NCBI GenBank assembly: GCA_016875195.1
Contig: VGRY01000032.1
Span: forward strand, 1-43,023
DNA from: Deltaproteobacteria bacterium
Lineage (GTDB): Bacteria > Desulfobacterota > BSN033 > UBA1163
DNA length: 43,023 nt
Direction: 5' to 3'
A program made the position numbers and the translations under genes. Position 1 is the stretch's first letter. Every line of letters begins with the position of its first letter. This document shows positions 25,031 to 34,938 of this stretch, in pieces. The notes beneath the pieces were generated by a model. That model worked only from the letters and a program-made list of their open reading frames with translations, made no database searches and was not told the DNA's origin.

Positions 25031-25453
25031 TCAGAGGGGGCTCATTGACTTTTCTATATTCCACTCGATCCGAAACGAGTTATTATCGATTTTGAATGTC
25101 TTCACCTTGATCCTCTCCTCTTTTACCGACTTTTCATGAGCCCTCTGCTCCGCTTTTTCTGCGGATGTCTCTTCACATGAGGAGAATATTTTTTCGCCCT
25201 GGGCCGCTTTTTCTATCGGTTGGGTTTTGAGCGGGGAAGGGGCATCCGCTTTTTTTTGATCCGGTGGGATCGGCGCGTCGTGGCATGGAACAATGGGTTG
25301 GACATCCTCCCGCCCTTCTTCTTTGGCCAGTGTAGGAGGCATGATCAAAAAGACGCACTGACAACGCGAGCACCGAACCTTTGTTCCCTTTGTTGAAATT
25401 TTGCAGTCATCTAAATGAAACTTGGTTAAACATGAGCCACAGGTGACAATCAT
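25031..25453 (-). CDS. Zinc-ribbon domain protein
   Basis: 140 aa. The N-terminal ~40 residues form an MJ0042-type zinc ribbon: CGSCLTKFHLDD ... KVRCSRCQCVFLI, four cysteines in two CxxC pairs. The middle is charged and low in complexity, and the final ~35 residues (KVKTFKIDNNSFRIEWNIEK) are more ordered. It has no membrane segment, unlike many proteins with this ribbon. It follows the M23 gene on the same strand and may belong to the cytoskeleton/wall group. Function unknown. Confidence 0.75.
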   Translation of the reverse strand: MIVTCGSCLTKFHLDDCKISTKGTKVRCSRCQCVFLIMPPTLAKEEGREDVQPIVPCHDAPIPPDQKKADAPSPLKTQPIEKAAQGEKIFSSCEETSAEKAEQRAHEKSVKEERIKVKTFKIDNNSFRIEWNIEKSMSPL

Positions 25454-25643
25454 GAACGGCCCCTTTAAAATAATTAATGGCAGGTCCGTATCCTCTCATC
25501 CCAGGTCCGTATCCTCTCATCCAATGATGTCCGTGGATACCAAACTCTTGTCTCATTTTTGGCCTGGAATCTATCTCCTCATTAGCGCTTGCCTTCATCT
25601 CTGTCGGCGATTCAAGTTTTTCAACAGTTTTACGAAACATCAT
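25407..25643 (-). CDS. Possible small coupled gene between M23 peptidase and zinc-ribbon gene
   Basis: 78 aa. The ATG overlaps the M23 stop (TCATGATG), and the end overlaps the zinc-ribbon gene by 47 bp in another frame. It contains a direct repeat MRGYGP-GMRGYGP encoded by two near-identical 20-bp units. No family is recognised. Coupling favours translation, but the composition is not clearly protein-like. Confidence 0.3.
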   Translation of the reverse strand: MMFRKTVEKLESPTEMKASANEEIDSRPKMRQEFGIHGHHWMRGYGPGMRGYGPAINYFKGAVHDCHLWLMFNQVSFR

Positions 25644-26518
25644 GACTTTCCCTCAATATAACTCGTGGGGTTTATCGGACGGCCTTCATGCCATATCTCG
25701 TAGTGAAGGTGAGGCCCTGTTGAATTGCCAGTTGAACCTGTATAGCTAACAATATCTCCCCTTTTCACCTTTTGCCCTACCTTGACCATCACCGTCTTAT
25801 TGTGGGCATAAAAAGTAGAAAACCTGAACCCATGCTCAATCACCACGAGATTTCCATTCCCTCCACTCCATCCGGAAAAACTTACAATCCCGTCTGCAGT
25901 GGCCTTGACAGGCAGGCCGGGTGCCGTGGCAATATCCACCCCGCTATGGAAGTTATCATTGCCTGATTTGGGATGTTCACGGTGTCCGTAGGATGATGTG
26001 ATATGGCCCTCGACAGGCCATCCCCGCGGGGTGGCCCTGTAGAGATCCCTTTGTTGGCTTAAATAATCTCTTATTTCGCCGACCGTTTCCATTGTTATTT
26101 TAATCTGCTGCTTTAAATTTTCCACGTCGATTGAGCCGCTGTCTGCAGTATCAAGATTTTTAAGAACATCTTCCTTGGACTTCAATGAGAAGAGTTTTTT
26201 AAATTCTTGCTCGGCCTTCTTAAGTGACGTGATCGTCGACTTCAGTTCCCGAAACTGGCCCGAATAATAATATAGCTTCGCTTTCATTCTTTTATATTCC
26301 ACCGTCTCAATCCCAACCGACAAGACATAGACGGTACCCGTGGTCCAGAATATGACAGAGGCGAGAACCCCGATCGAGGGTATTTTAACCCGAATGGACC
26401 TTGCGTTACTGTGTGGTACGAACATGACGGTTATCGGTGTGAAGGCCCTTTTTAGCCAGCCCCTCATTTTTTTCATATTGAATTCTTTTGATTCTTCTTT
26501 CATTCCAGCGAATGGCAT
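25640..26518 (-). CDS. M23 (LytM-type) membrane-anchored peptidase
   Basis: 292 aa from ATG 26518, chosen for the GAGG before it; a TTG at 26533 and an ATG at 26476 also exist. A basic N terminus and one membrane segment (IGVLASVIFWTTGTVYVLSV) precede a coiled coil and the M23 domain: GHITSSYGHREHPKSG, NDNFHSGVDIA with the zinc His and Asp, and GPHLHYEIWHEGRPINP with HxH. The zinc ligands are complete, so endopeptidase activity on cross-links is likely. M23 genes next to bactofilins are a known pairing in cell-shape control; bactofilin is encoded about 1.7 kb upstream. Confidence 0.92.
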   Translation of the reverse strand: MPFAGMKEESKEFNMKKMRGWLKRAFTPITVMFVPHSNARSIRVKIPSIGVLASVIFWTTGTVYVLSVGIETVEYKRMKAKLYYYSGQFRELKSTITSLKKAEQEFKKLFSLKSKEDVLKNLDTADSGSIDVENLKQQIKITMETVGEIRDYLSQQRDLYRATPRGWPVEGHITSSYGHREHPKSGNDNFHSGVDIATAPGLPVKATADGIVSFSGWSGGNGNLVVIEHGFRFSTFYAHNKTVMVKVGQKVKRGDIVSYTGSTGNSTGPHLHYEIWHEGRPINPTSYIEGKS

Positions 26519-26720
26519 TGAACCTCGATCCAAACGCCTTCACCGGATTTCACTCTAAACAATGACCGGGCGACAAATAAGCATGCCGTTTTCCCCCTCC
26601 CCCAAAATTCCTTCGGTCGGTTTACGGGAAGGGTAATCGGGAGCGCCATCCCAGACCAGAGACAAGGTATATCGAGAAATGTCTGAATGGCCATCGATTA
26701 AGTATTATATCTATGTCTTT

Positions 26721-27611
26721 TCAGGTTATATATTTTGTATATCCGAAACCTAAATCCAATGCAGGTTTGAAACCGGCATGCATCGATGCGCCGAGGACGT
26801 TCAGGTATTCAGGATATTCAGCCGGAATGACCAATGTCTTGGAGGTCTCGATCATGTCAGGCGAGACAAAATAAGCCAGCCCCCCGACGATGATCGCCTG
26901 ATCAAAATCCATCAGCTCGTTGGAGATACCGCTTTTGATCTGGCGGAAGACCTCTCTAATATATCTGTCGATGGCCTGCTTTTTTTCATCTTCGAAATAT
27001 ATTCTTTCAAAATTATAATCGACGTATCCATTCTTTAAAACTTCATCCAGCCGGATGGAATTATGGCTGACATCGGGAATTCTATTGCGTACTAACGGCC
27101 TGAAATATTTTTCGATCAAGTCCCTCACTCCAACCTGATTGTAATACGTCTCATAATAAACCACTTCATCGCCTTTGATGATCTCTACGTTGACGGAATT
27201 AAAGCCTCCATCTATCAAGAGGGTCGTTTTATTTTCTGCATTATTCGTTTTGATGAGATATTCGAGCGCGGATACCCCCTGTCCGACCACTGTCTCGACG
27301 CTCAATTTTTTTGCCAATTTTTCAGCGATTCCATCCGAATCGTACACGGAGTAAGGGAGCGTGATGGCGTCAAACTTAACCTCGTACTTCCTCTCGTACC
27401 ACCTCAAAAACAGCTCATAATAATTTAGCAGGTCATCGACGTTATAGATGCCCGTGCAATACCGGCTTCGCTTATTAGCGTCATTGCCAACAAGATAATG
27501 GGATTCATTCCACCCGATCGCTCTCTTGATTTCATTATGGGTAGAGACACTTCGAATCACTGTCGGTTCTTTTGAAAATTGCATGGCATTTTCTCCCTTC
27601 TCATTTTTCAT
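26721..27611 (-). CDS. Actin-like (ParM/StbA-type) ATPase, apparently circularly permuted
   Basis: 296 aa. The order of actin-fold motifs is unusual. Phosphate-2 (LLIDGGFNSVNVEIIKGD) is near 131-147, the adenosine motif (AIIVGGLAYFV) near 239-249, and the connect-2 helix (EYLNVLGASMHAG) near 268-280. Only then comes the phosphate-1 hairpin LDLGFGYTKYIT (285-296), at the very C terminus; in ParM, MreB and actin this motif opens the protein. The N terminus (MQFSKEPTVIRSVS) looks like what normally follows phosphate-1. Strand order is therefore rotated by one hairpin. The upstream protein does not contain a phosphate-1 motif. The ATG overlaps the preceding stop (ATGA); ATG 27584 has a better ribosome site. 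It probably forms filaments; partner and cargo are unknown. Confidence 0.88.
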   Translation of the reverse strand: MKNEKGENAMQFSKEPTVIRSVSTHNEIKRAIGWNESHYLVGNDANKRSRYCTGIYNVDDLLNYYELFLRWYERKYEVKFDAITLPYSVYDSDGIAEKLAKKLSVETVVGQGVSALEYLIKTNNAENKTTLLIDGGFNSVNVEIIKGDEVVYYETYYNQVGVRDLIEKYFRPLVRNRIPDVSHNSIRLDEVLKNGYVDYNFERIYFEDEKKQAIDRYIREVFRQIKSGISNELMDFDQAIIVGGLAYFVSPDMIETSKTLVIPAEYPEYLNVLGASMHAGFKPALDLGFGYTKYIT

Positions 27612-27919
27612 AATTTAATTTTTTTATCGACCGGATAAAGCTCCTTGACGGTTTTAGGCTCATTCAGCACCATTTCGACGTCGTCTTCCAGTATCGGGAT
27701 CGGCACATGCTCCCTGTCCAGCTTGCTCCATAATGAGATGGTTGCAATCATGGCGTTAAGATTAGGGAACATCTCGACCACCCGAAGAAGATAGTGATTA
27801 AACGGCATCAATTGGTAGAGCGTGACCAGCCTGGCGATGAACTCTCCGGTATCTAACGCTGCATCGTCAGCTAAATTCTTTATGAGTTGAGAATCAATTT
27901 TTTTCTTCTTCGTTTCCAT
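27608..27919 (-). CDS. Unknown small partner of the actin-like gene
   Basis: 103 aa, not recognised. It is helical and acidic/basic mixed, with no membrane segment: LIKNLADDAALDTGEFIARL, NLNAMIATISLWSKLD, and an acidic patch ILEDDVEMVLNEPKTV near the end. GAGGAGG precedes the ATG and a near-consensus sigma-54 site lies just upstream. Its stop overlaps the start of the actin-like gene, so the two are translationally coupled. A filament adaptor, by analogy with ParR beside ParM, is possible but there is no visible DNA-binding motif. Confidence 0.82.
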   Translation of the reverse strand: METKKKKIDSQLIKNLADDAALDTGEFIARLVTLYQLMPFNHYLLRVVEMFPNLNAMIATISLWSKLDREHVPIPILEDDVEMVLNEPKTVKELYPVDKKIKL

Positions 27920-27945
27920 CCGTTTGCCTCCTCGGTATTTAATTA

Positions 27946-27962
27946 AGCAATTTCAGTGCCAA
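27946..27962 (-). promoter_or_regulatory. Putative sigma-54 promoter of the 103-aa/actin pair
   Basis: On the minus strand TTTGGCACTGAAATTGCTT matches TTGGCAC-N5-TTGCT, with GG and GC ten bases apart. It is 27 bp from the ATG at 27919 and is the best match of all sigma-54 sites in the window. Confidence 0.72.
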
Positions 27963-28175
27963 ATCTAAAAAACCAGAGCCATCCTGACCCATCCGGCCCT
28001 TTTCAGTCGGTTTCCCATTGCCAGATATGCGATTTTCCCAGAATGTGATGTCAGCAGGACACCTCTCGGCCCCTTATCCAGGCGGATATCCGGGAGTTAA
28101 CCAGGAAAAAATATCCGGCAGAAGGAATTTATTTCCCACAATACAGCATGTCGTCCCATGGCAAACGATGTCGCT

Positions 28176-28637
28176 CTATAACGACTTAACTTCCTCGAAC
28201 TTAATCTCACCCAATTTGATATTCTTAATCTTATCCGCTCTGTTCTTGTCATTCTTCAGCTCCACGACCTTTAAACTGTCATCCTTCCGGCCTATCTCAG
28301 AATGGTCTGTCCCACTCATGATCATCATGCCGTCTAAAACAGCCCCTTCATCAACACTAAGTTTTGCTGTTCTGATATTCCCTTTCACATGGCCTTTGCT
28401 TTTAATGGAGACAATCTCTTTCGCTTCAATATTTCCTCTGATCTTTCCAGCGACGACCACTCCGCAGGCCTTCACATCCCCCTCTAAGAATGCCTTTTCG
28501 CCGAGGATGAGCCAGTCCACGTCAATATTGCCAGAAACATTGCCATCCACCCTGATGGTCCCCTTGATTACTAAATCGCCATTAAATTTAGCATCCTCTC
28601 CAACAAGCGACTCAATTTTATTGCTTCGAGAGAACAT
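28176..28637 (-). CDS. Bactofilin (polymer-forming cytoskeletal protein)
   Basis: 153 aa. The bactofilin beta-helix core is clear: ESLVGEDAKFNGDLVIKGTI, RVDGNVSGNIDVDWLILGEK and AKGKIRGNIEAKEIV-like turns, with hydrophobic residues at regular spacing from ~8 to ~115. The C-terminal tail is charged and disordered. Bactofilins polymerise without nucleotide, bind the inner membrane and recruit wall enzymes such as M23 peptidases. AAGGAGG lies nine bases before the ATG, with a sigma-54 site upstream. The long open frame on the opposite strand is a shadow. Confidence 0.95.
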   Translation of the reverse strand: MFSRSNKIESLVGEDAKFNGDLVIKGTIRVDGNVSGNIDVDWLILGEKAFLEGDVKACGVVVAGKIRGNIEAKEIVSIKSKGHVKGNIRTAKLSVDEGAVLDGMMIMSGTDHSEIGRKDDSLKVVELKNDKNRADKIKNIKLGEIKFEEVKSL

Positions 28638-28667
28638 AATTTCATTCCTCCTTAGAAAAGGAATTAA

Positions 28668-28684
28668 TGCAATTTATTTGCCAT
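28668..28684 (-). promoter_or_regulatory. Putative sigma-54 promoter of bactofilin
   Basis: Minus-strand ATGGCAAATAAATTGCAT: GG and GC separated by ten bases, matching TGGCA-N5-TTGCA. It ends about 31 bp before the bactofilin ATG. Confidence 0.65.
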
Positions 28685-28944
28685 TTCCCCAGCCTGAAAC
28701 CAGCGCTGACCGGCCGGGCTGGGGGTGAATCAGCCTTGCCCCCGGGAAACATGAGATGATCAGTCACAAGACGCAAGGCCCGAAAAGAAGTTGAAATCGT
28801 TCCTCTAAGGGCCGAAGAGTCGAAGGTCTCTCCTGATTCTCGATCCCCGGTCTTCAATCGAGCCATTCTATTTGATAGGTTCCGGGCTACAATTTTTTTC
28901 CCTTGACAGCGGGCTCCTCTCAAGAGCAGGCCCCGTGGGCGTCT
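28685..28944. other. Intergenic region between bactofilin promoter and J-MinD gene
   Basis: No gene is supported. Near 28908-28935 the minus strand can form a GGGCCTGCTC/GAGGAGCCC stem just after the J-MinD stop. It has no T-run, so it is at best a weak terminator. Confidence 0.5.
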
Positions 28945-30156
28945 TCAGGCGATGTTAGCGATCAGTTGTGTTATGAACGTCGAAAGATATCCTCCCGGGG
29001 ATTTCACAACGACGGGCATCAGGTCCCTCGCGCTCCATTTGATCTCAGGCTGGTACAGAAGAGTTCCCGAATGCTCCACATGGATTGAAAGCATCTTCCT
29101 CGCCACTTCTTGAATGCGTTTGGCTGGCGCGATGGCATCCGAAATCGACTCAACCATGTTGATTAAGAGCAAAGGACGAAATTTTGAAACGACGTCACGG
29201 ATGAAAGATTGATGCCGGGGACATTCCCTTCCTACCCTCTCGATTAACTGGTCGATAGTCTTCACTCTTTTTCCGTTTTTCGACAGGGTGATTTCTTCGA
29301 TCAATTCCTTCAGTAAGGGATCTTTTTCAACTCCAAGGGTTGATTCCACCCCAAAGAGCCGGTTTAATTTTCGAAGCAAACTCACCTTTATAAAATTGTA
29401 TGCCTCCAGATAGGAAGTGGGGTCGCATGTCGTCAATACAAACCCGTGATCGGCTAACAGAAAGAAATCAATAACGTTGTAGGAGGTATCCCCTCCGAGG
29501 TCAAGGATGACAAAATCGGCATCGATCATCCTAATCGAGCGCAGCAATTTCAGCTTCAAGACGAAGTCGATATTGGCCGCTCCTAAGCGGGAGCTATCCC
29601 CCCCGATCAGCTTTGGACCGTACTTTGTCGTCACCATGATTTCTTCGAGTTTGGCGGTCCGCTGGGATAAGAAGTCGCTAAGTGTGTATGGAAGAGTCGT
29701 TTCACCGAGGTAGAGGTGGAGGTTCGCTCCGCCAAGGTCCAGATCGATGAGAACCGTCCTGTATCCTACCTGGGAGAGGGAGACTGCGAGATTGGCAGAG
29801 AGGATGCTCTTGCCAATGCCCCCTTTTGCCCCTCCGACGGCGATGATAGTATGCCTGGGCTTGCCCCCGACCGAGGGCGCCTTTGCTTCAGGAAGCATAT
29901 AATTTTTCAGGATTTCGTAAGACTCCCTTACCATGATGAAGCGGTCCTTGCGCCTCTCGACCATTTCCGGAGACTCTTGGCTATGGAGGTCCGGATGGTA
30001 CCGTTTAGCCTTCTCTGCAAACGCCGCTTTTACCGTATCAAATCTTAAATTCATCAGGAATTGTTTGTCTTTGGTATGTTCGGGAGAAAAGAGATAGGCG
30101 CAGGCGATCCGGATCTTATTTGCCTCTGGAGATGGAAGATCGTTAATCGGCAGCAT
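28945..30156 (-). CDS. J-domain/MinD-ParA fusion ATPase
   Basis: 403 aa. Residues ~10-88 form a DnaJ-type J domain with the HPD triad at 54-56 (AKRYHPDLHSQ). Residues ~102-400 form a MinD/ParA ATPase: deviant Walker A GGAKGGIGKS (108-117) with the signature lysine, VLIDLDLGGANLHLYLG (Walker A'), and FVILDLGGDTSYNVIDFFLL (Walker B region). Similar ATPases (FlhG, MinD, MipZ) place flagella, division sites or polar complexes. The J domain implies that an Hsp70 partner is recruited. AAGGA precedes the ATG and a sigma-54 site lies 40 bp upstream. Confidence 0.9.
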   Translation of the reverse strand: MLPINDLPSPEANKIRIACAYLFSPEHTKDKQFLMNLRFDTVKAAFAEKAKRYHPDLHSQESPEMVERRKDRFIMVRESYEILKNYMLPEAKAPSVGGKPRHTIIAVGGAKGGIGKSILSANLAVSLSQVGYRTVLIDLDLGGANLHLYLGETTLPYTLSDFLSQRTAKLEEIMVTTKYGPKLIGGDSSRLGAANIDFVLKLKLLRSIRMIDADFVILDLGGDTSYNVIDFFLLADHGFVLTTCDPTSYLEAYNFIKVSLLRKLNRLFGVESTLGVEKDPLLKELIEEITLSKNGKRVKTIDQLIERVGRECPRHQSFIRDVVSKFRPLLLINMVESISDAIAPAKRIQEVARKMLSIHVEHSGTLLYQPEIKWSARDLMPVVVKSPGGYLSTFITQLIANIA

Positions 30157-33692: not shown

Positions 33693-34938
33693 GTATAAAG
33701 TTTCATTAATATATTTACATACAAACCTCTTTGTGGTATAAAGGTTCCTAAAAACAAAGGAGGAAACCAATATGCCACGAAAGAGCCAGAAAGCCAAGTT
33801 GATTTTAACCAAAGAGCAAAAAGAAGAGTTACAAAAGACTGTACAATCACGAAAGGCTCCCATAAGAGAAGCCCAACGGGCCAATATTCTGTTGAGGTAT
33901 TCAGAAGGCATACCCATCACCGAGATTGAAAAGATGACTCATGTCAGTAGGCCGACGATTTACAAATGGGTGGAGAAAGCCTTGGCCATGGGAATGGAGG
34001 AAGGCCTGAAGGACAAGTATCATCGGCCTAAAGAGCCTGTGATTACAGAGGAAGCCAAGGCCTGGGTCATTCATCTTGCTTGCCAGAAACCGAAGGATTT
34101 GGGTTATGCCGCTGAAGTATGGAGCCGTAGGGCTTTGGCGGAACACGCAAGAAAACACGGGCCTGGGTTTGGACATGAGTGTTTGAAGAAAGCCTGTAAG
34201 GCTACGATTCAGAGGATTCTGAGCGAGCATCCGATACGCCCTCATAAGGTGGCCTATTATTTGGAGCGGCGTGATCCAGAGTTTGATCATAAAATGGAGG
34301 AGGTGCTGTGTGTATATAAAGAGGTTCACCTCCAAAACGAAACCATCAAATCTGGGCACAGCCCATCTGTGATTAGTGTCAGTGTGGATGAAAAACCGGG
34401 GGTCCAGGCCATTCAGAATATTGCGCCTGATATCATGCCAGATCCGGTGAAACAATCCCGAATCATGAGGGATCACGAATACAAGCGGTTGGGAACCCTG
34501 TCGATCCTGGCAGCTCTGGACTTGCATGACGGTCATGTGATTGGCCAGATTCATGATAGACATCGAAGCTCTGAGTTTATCTCCTTACTTAAGGAAATGG
34601 ATGATTACTATCCAGCAGGCTCTACCATTCGCATCATTCTGGATAATCATTCGGCTCACATCTCCAAGGAGACGATGAAATATTTAGCTGCCCGTCCGGG
34701 GAGATTTGTGTATGTGCATACCCCCAAGCACGGTTCCTGGCTCAATTTGGTTGAAACACTTTTTGGTAAAATGTCCAGGACCTTTTTGAAACATATCCGA
34801 GTCACTTCCAAACAGGAGCTCAAAGAGAGAATTCTTCTGGGCATTAAAGAGATCAACGAACATCCTGTCGTGCATCGGTGGAAAAAATTCAATTTGGCAC
34901 CTAACTTTTAATGTCAATGTTTTATTGTTACTTTATAC
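33693..34938 (+). mobile_element. IS630-family insertion sequence
   Basis: The ends GTATAAAGT (33693-33701) and ACTTTATAC (34930-34938) are perfect inverted repeats. TA flanks both sides (33691-33692 and 34939-34940), and the rebuilt target is CTAG, the preferred site of IS630. One intact transposase gene lies inside. The right junction abuts a tRNA-Asn-derived fragment. Confidence 0.9.
33772..34911 (+). CDS. IS630-family transposase
   Basis: 379 aa, full length. An N-terminal helix-turn-helix (ITEIEKMTHVSRPTIYKWVE) binds the ends. The DDE catalytic triad is D206 (ISVSVDEKPG), D291 (IRIILDNHSAH) and E328 (GSWLNLVETLFG). GGAGG precedes the ATG. Such enzymes cut and paste DNA into TA dinucleotides, in agreement with the flanks. 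No internal stop or shift, so it is probably active or recently so. Confidence 0.96.
   Translation: MPRKSQKAKLILTKEQKEELQKTVQSRKAPIREAQRANILLRYSEGIPITEIEKMTHVSRPTIYKWVEKALAMGMEEGLKDKYHRPKEPVITEEAKAWVIHLACQKPKDLGYAAEVWSRRALAEHARKHGPGFGHECLKKACKATIQRILSEHPIRPHKVAYYLERRDPEFDHKMEEVLCVYKEVHLQNETIKSGHSPSVISVSVDEKPGVQAIQNIAPDIMPDPVKQSRIMRDHEYKRLGTLSILAALDLHDGHVIGQIHDRHRSSEFISLLKEMDDYYPAGSTIRIILDNHSAHISKETMKYLAARPGRFVYVHTPKHGSWLNLVETLFGKMSRTFLKHIRVTSKQELKERILLGIKEINEHPVVHRWKKFNLAPNF

Follow-up and report, generated by a model that had tools for sequence, protein, structure and literature searches.

The stretch of DNA analyzed here (the window) comprises 43,023 nucleotides (nt) of contig VGRY01000032.1 from a deltaproteobacterial genome, and all coordinates refer to positions within it. 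On the minus strand, the window carries, in this order, genes for a DnaJ/MinD-like ATPase, a bactofilin, a protein of 103 amino acids (aa), an actin-like protein, an M23 peptidase, and a zinc-ribbon protein; a fliF-fliJ flagellar cluster lies beside this neighborhood. Here, we focus on the actin-like gene (26721–27584; 287 aa from its likely start), which encodes a ParM/StbA-like actin that is very probably circularly permuted, and then describe its neighbors and partner gene. The longest open reading frame (ORF) reaches 27611, and the likely start is an internal ATG at 27584 with AAGGGAG just before it; GGAGG is found at the equivalent site of the orthologue described below.

The nucleotide-binding fold of the actin/Hsp70/sugar-kinase superfamily is old and widespread, and the phosphate-1 hairpin is normally its N-terminal start. 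The three superfamily motifs are described in PMC1079889; we assigned them in the permuted protein by reading alignments. The same motif reading gives LVGNDA (residues 31–36) near the N terminus, followed by phosphate-2, LLIDGGFNSV (27192–27221, minus strand; residues 122–131), which aligns with the canonical IDIGFNT, then the adenosine motif, AIIVGGLAY (26871–26897, minus strand; residues 230–238), in which the canonical GGG is GGL, and PEYLNVLG (residues 258–265). The conserved Gly of PEYLNVLG is connected to the phosphate-1 Asp through an 11-residue joint, ASMHAGFKPAL (26757–26789, minus strand; residues 266–276), whose last residue is the first Leu of phosphate-1 itself, LDLGFGYTK (residues 276–284). 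This motif forms part of a C-terminal hairpin, PALDLGFGYTKYIT (26724–26765, minus strand; residues 274–287). The original prediction, made from the sequence alone, gave the ORF at 26721–27611 and the motif order phosphate-2, adenosine, phosphate-1, both of which stand; it placed phosphate-1 four residues from the stop, but only three (YIT) follow. The new N terminus, MQFSKEPTVIRSVS (27543–27584, minus strand), is equivalent in alignments to the strand that follows the canonical phosphate-1 hairpin. The prediction also had the termini moved to the loop next to the nucleotide. They are indeed near the nucleotide hairpin; however, in the usual actin strand numbering the whole beta1-beta2 hairpin has moved, and the break falls in the beta2-beta3 turn rather than inside the hairpin. 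If exposed there, the new termini might act in filament contacts or regulation, as the prediction suggested.

By sequence homology over the two-domain core, by its actin fold, and by the three motifs, the window protein is a ParM/StbA-like actin. It matches the partition protein family PHROG 691 (E 4.7e-14, residues 98–265), and tblastn finds the ParM of a Persephonella marina plasmid (L003; E 2e-8) and a Geobacter plasmid protein (E 4e-5). When the rotated protein was combined with ten canonical relatives in a profile, which those ten rows dominate, pCBH ParM (PDB 6izr) was matched at E 7.9e-21. The likeness to plasmid actins such as these two ParM proteins thus comprises homology, fold, the phosphate-1, phosphate-2, and adenosine motifs, and a length of ~290 aa, whereas the permuted protein differs in its C-terminal phosphate-1 and in its partner and neighbors, with no adaptor-like gene found alongside. 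The permuted pair (window protein and orthologue) departs from the canonical chain order of the family, phosphate-1 being C-terminal in two of two. Pfam models stay below their curated cut-offs: MreB-like_C (PF21522) at 15.0 to 20.6 versus 27.8 bits, and ALP_N (PF17989) at 15.9 versus 26.3 bits with the rotated window protein, which touches this model across the joint (residues 2–56, E 0.016) where the native order does not. NCBIfam matches to allose kinase (E 4.3e-4) and RamA (E 0.007), alike in rotated and native order and far below cut-offs, and a weak match to the RnlB_antitoxin family (E 0.076, rotated order only) were taken as chance or general superfamily likeness.

The permutation recurs in an orthologue, L001, in a Nitrospirota metagenome-assembled genome (G400). 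It was the one relative that six short exact peptides brought up across 84,980 species genomes; such a scan reaches close relatives only, so that a lack of matches in it says little. L001 is 72% identical to the window protein over 289 residues, has the same motif order, as the original prediction had proposed to look for, and ends KPALDLGFGYAKYIK. G400 appears to belong to another phylum than the window's genome (the listed relatives of the two do not overlap), and G+C content is 48% in the window versus 57% in the G400 contig, yet architecture, start, stop, and partner gene are common to both loci. The aligned codons comprise 77 identical pairs, 129 synonymous differences, and 81 non-synonymous ones; the non-synonymous rate (dN) is ~0.19, and the synonymous rate (dS) is not computable, as expected for saturation. 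In the last 16 codons, two are identical, 11 synonymous, and three non-synonymous, so that 13 of 16 residues agree, and for 11 of these the two genes use different codons. The tail has therefore been maintained as protein, and its preservation in a separate assembly argues strongly against assembly error. No further orthologue beyond these two genomes was found among overlapping sets of 59, 17, 395, 298, 395, 198, and 195 genomes. Phage records yielded no match, and neither did viral contigs in a first scan with the two orthologues or in one with seven canonical proteins.

Every other relative whose chain order can be resolved is canonical. Among the bacterial and plasmid relatives, 26 in all, phosphate-1 is N-terminal in 25, and the frame of the remaining one (L017) is cut by the end of its stretch. 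Among 80 distinct viral relatives (102 loci minus 22 duplicates), it is N-terminal in 72, with seven cut at the contig start and one (L140) not resolved. The viral tally was made by profile search, because a regular expression for phosphate-1 recognized it in no more than 61 distinct viral proteins and failed at 19 loci. Four loci were dropped as not ParM-like (L014, Hsp70-like; L019–L021, other proteins), and a plasmid ParM with N-terminal phosphate-1 (L005) was left out of the profile, tree, and tallies. The viral contig of L140 has a 488-residue open frame that matches the second half of the ParM profile only (50.6 bits), with no phosphate-1 recognized. After rotation, the D, G, F, and K of phosphate-1 and the D, G, and N of phosphate-2 are invariant in all 11 aligned rows.

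Rotating the sequence improves its match to a profile of nine canonical relatives. In native order, the window protein scores 131.3 bits, with a core match to profile positions 23–287 and a separate C-terminal phosphate-1. The best of all 287 rotations, starting at residues 272 and 273, reach 139.4 bits as a single continuous match (profile 5–287 of 292), and L001 rises from 121.9 to about 131.6 bits. The original prediction had named a gain in a profile search with the rotated sequence as support for the permutation; the gain amounts to 8–10 bits, and a split match becomes a continuous one. When the 15-residue tail was shuffled before rotation, mean scores were 130.6 (window) and 121.6 (L001) and maxima 134.1 and 127.9, with none of 1000 shuffles reaching the real value in either protein; in leave-one-out profiles, all nine canonical proteins gained at most 0.2 bits from any rotation. 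The NCBIfam model PRTRC_D goes from 18.0 to 19.8 bits on rotation. The joint has a plausible length as well: its 11 residues equal the sum of the canonical tail (six, after the conserved Gly) and head (five, before the phosphate-1 Asp) in L007 and L009. For six more of the nine canonical relatives, the corresponding total ranges from 10 to 18; L006 has a 40-residue tail. Judging from these lengths, the joint would fit a head-to-tail fusion as left by tandem duplication and trimming.

A mis-assembled or frameshifted upstream segment supplying the missing motif had been named in advance as grounds for rejecting the permutation, and we found none: within 1200 nt upstream of the actin start, a D-x-G-[FYWS] motif is absent from all three forward frames in the window. 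At the L001 locus, the pattern occurs upstream once, but a stop interrupts the frame. Downstream of the window actin, this loose pattern matches four times within 600 nt, none in a phosphate-1-like context.

The structure model agrees with an N terminus that begins where the family continues after the hairpin. AlphaFold2, run on an alignment of 43 rows (window, L001, and 41 viral relatives trimmed after phosphate-1), gave an actin fold with a predicted local distance difference test score (pLDDT) of 84.9 and a predicted template modeling score of 0.82. A model from the two orthologues alone was useless (pLDDT 40.5). Viral phosphate-1 fragments as extra rows were set by MAFFT on phosphate-2 and omitted, so the 43-row model has only two rows over the tail. 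The best solved matches by Z score are Ta0583 (22.0; root-mean-square deviation 3.4 over 262 aligned residues), Dh-cParM1 (21.5), CorM (21.3), pCBH ParM (20.6), and R1 ParM (19.9); ranking by Foldseek E-value puts DnaK domains at the top, with pCBH ParM in fourth place and Ta0583 in sixth. Among the matches listed, all 50 begin at model residue 1, paired with chain residues 18–63 (20 in Ta0583, 23 in R1 ParM), and none extends past model residue 279; the low-confidence tail was pre-trimmed in some comparisons, but the untrimmed ones also end at or before 279. The canonical first hairpin is thus missing from the model, which has an additional stretch at its C terminus. From the strand order of the actin fold, the C-terminal hairpin would sit beside the first strand (residues 9–13) in the domain-I sheet. 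Prediction and superposition bear out an actin fold that starts after the canonical phosphate-1 hairpin, with a tail placed at low confidence. The archaeal actin homologue Ta0583 (PDB 2fsj) shares the fold, with the top Z score, but is only 17% identical and has canonical chain order. In the filament protein CorM of Anabaena sp. PCC 7120 (PDB 9rmi), model residue 1 pairs with residue 63. CorM/CorR is reportedly a segregation system turned cell-shape cytoskeleton; no paper on it was found in the open-access literature searched.

When the two rotated sequences were placed in a tree alongside 11 bacterial or plasmid and 12 viral relatives, the permuted pair came out as sister to a canonical clade (L004, L006, L007, L009–L012), within a group of support 97/94. 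Since canonical genes lie both beside and outside the pair, the permutation is most simply derived. Taken together, the orthologue with the same order, the canonical order of the other relatives, the rotation gain with its shuffle and canonical controls, the joint length, and the model start make it very probable that this is a natural circular permutation of a ParM/StbA-like actin, as the original prediction had proposed. Tandem duplication of an ancestral canonical parM, followed by trimming, would have joined the C-terminal tail to the N-terminal head and created new termini in the beta2-beta3 turn. Folded back into the domain-I sheet, the C-terminal hairpin would supply the phosphate-1 Asp and Lys and restore the ATP-binding actin fold. 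With less certainty, the gene may then have left its parMR segregation setting and come to be made with a new 103-aa partner, and its product may form nucleotide-dependent filaments that work with the neighboring bactofilin, and in the window with the M23 peptidase, in the cell envelope.

The partner gene (27608–27919, minus strand) has a stop that overlaps the start of the longest actin ORF, and its product is 72% identical to its counterpart at the L001 locus. This protein has no Pfam, NCBIfam, or plasmid match and reaches only E 0.057 in PHROG; no further relative was found in the plasmids and 395 genomes of the window's phylum to which the search was limited. The best other match in those genomes (G234, E 0.003) is by eye a GGDEF protein and was taken as chance. 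Upstream of the actin cassette is the bactofilin gene (28176–28637, minus strand; PF04519, E 4e-25), and downstream is the M23 peptidase gene (25640–26533, minus strand; PF01551, E 6.2e-35). A bactofilin (E 7.9e-21) and the 103-aa gene precede the actin at the L001 locus likewise. Bactofilin and M23 peptidase genes are often adjacent and cooperate in shape control, according to PMC10945521. The window resembles the BacA-LmdC module of Hyphomonas neptunium treated there in having both genes on the same strand, but differs in that the 103-aa gene and the actin stand between them; the accessible text mentions no actin in that module. An empty site was sought within the genus, where one genome (G006) has an M23 orthologue (84% over 174 aa) on a contig ending there.

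Among canonical relatives, the setting is different. An adaptor-like gene lies directly downstream in 22 of the 26 bacterial and plasmid relatives (L004, L006, L007, L009–L012, L017, and L161–L174), as detected with a profile built from four of them, so that 18 of the 22 positives were not used in building it. The proteins are 84–110 aa long in four members, none of which had a Pfam match among the four tested, and we take the family to resemble ParR-type DNA-binding proteins. The profile, limited to this adaptor-like family, finds no match in the window or the G400 contig (best E 1.2–1.7). Nor is there a parC-type iterated repeat array in 25400–28900; beyond one repeat of 2 x 21 nt, this region has just short pairs in two copies. 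The flagellar genes of the window and a pheA-like gene near the orthologue (its product read from sequence by eye) suggest that both loci are chromosomal.

Our overall explanation, to which we assign a probability of roughly 80%, is a permuted ParM, apparently chromosomal, that may have been recruited to an envelope cytoskeleton. Several observations weigh against it or its parts. Only two genomes with a permuted actin are known, both drafts. The rotation gain is modest at 8–10 bits, and the C-terminal phosphate-1 alone scores -1.2 bits in native order. Single-sequence PDB searches in native and rotated order returned only unrelated matches, and with DnaK domains at the top by Foldseek E-value, fold similarity by itself does not point to ParM specifically. 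The tail (residues 279–287) has pLDDT <50 and is covered by two of the 43 rows, with a DSSP strand at 284–286, so that hairpin closure is inferred rather than demonstrated; the structural aligner keeps chain order and is therefore blind to it. Both permuted proteins have GGL for the adenosine GGG and GQG for PQG, changes that may weaken nucleotide binding or affinity. As for the envelope, the two bactofilins are only 32% identical, and no M23 peptidase gene was seen adjoining the permuted actin in G400, so the link could be coincidence. We consider formation of an ATP-dependent polymer somewhat more likely than not, and an envelope role, suggested by the gene neighborhood, less likely than not.

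One alternative accepts the permutation, and its odds overlap with ours: the protein would still serve DNA segregation as any ordinary ParM does, with a neutral permutation and with the 103-aa protein encoded upstream as its DNA-binding adaptor. The closest canonical relatives are indeed parM-like with a small adaptor-like gene adjoining, and PHROG 691 is named a partition protein; but the adaptor-like family has no counterpart at either permuted locus (an adaptor of unrelated type would escape this profile), the 103-aa protein matches no family, the repeat array is lacking, and the flagellar and pheA-like neighbors point to chromosomes. We regard a segregation role as unlikely. In another alternative, a very unlikely one, the C-terminal hairpin would complete a neighboring subunit, with filaments built by donor-strand exchange. 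This reading draws on the low-confidence tail and on the gap that the fold would have in the domain-I sheet without it; however, the low pLDDT is explained by the two covering rows, and the joint length permits simple intramolecular closure.

Two further alternatives deny a working permuted actin, and we hold both to be highly improbable. That the gene is a degenerate, inactive remnant or an assembly error merely looking permuted might be argued from the draft genomes and the two changed motif positions, but the orthologue already refutes it for the most part: architecture, start, stop, and partner gene recur in a separate assembly with another G+C content, synonymous change is saturated while dN is ~0.19, the phosphate-1 tail has been preserved across synonymous changes, and the window has no upstream phosphate-1 remnant. 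Equally, LDLGFGYTK might resemble phosphate-1 by chance in a protein of actin-like fold whose N-terminal hairpin is gone and which has ceased to be an ATPase, as the small gain from a short tail and its unconfident placement by AlphaFold2 would allow. Against this stand the shuffled tails, none of which equaled the real score in either protein, the presence of D, G, F, and K together, and the different codons by which 11 of the 13 residues kept in the last 16 are encoded in the orthologue.

No natural permuted actin was found among the matches listed in the open-access literature, as judged from titles and abstract openings, with subscription papers mostly outside. If true, conservation of a natural permutant would mean that a new start point is tolerated by the fold and probably also by its ATP site, and it would provide a ready-made system for testing the influence on polymerization of chain ends close to the nucleotide. 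The permuted actin may also be a further instance of an actin shifted from DNA segregation to a different task in the cell. In its boldest form, which we consider doubtful, the proposal would be the first natural circularly permuted actin as a working filament-forming ATPase, one that left DNA segregation for an envelope cytoskeleton of bactofilin and M23 peptidase, acquired the 103-aa protein as a new partner, and possibly exchanges hairpins between subunits. The hairpin would be made last, so nucleotide binding and polymerization would start only with the complete chain.

Some minor features of the neighborhood may be added. The G+C content of the actin and 103-aa genes is 42–44% (window 26700–27900), slightly under that of the flanks (45–50%). 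Upstream of the bactofilin, the MinD/ParA-type ATPase gene (28945–30156, minus strand; CbiA E 1.6e-11) encodes an N-terminal DnaJ-like stretch (Pfam DnaJ E 4.3e-5, below cut-off), and ~3.6 kilobases beyond it is a DDE_3 transposase gene (33772–34911, plus strand), a possible trace of mobility near the cassette. Between the M23 and zinc-ribbon genes is an exact 21-nt tandem duplication, CAGGTCCGTATCCTCTCATCC (25481–25522). The window's genome also has a second M23 peptidase (G000:C21:52219-53028), which is 46% identical to the one near the permuted actin.
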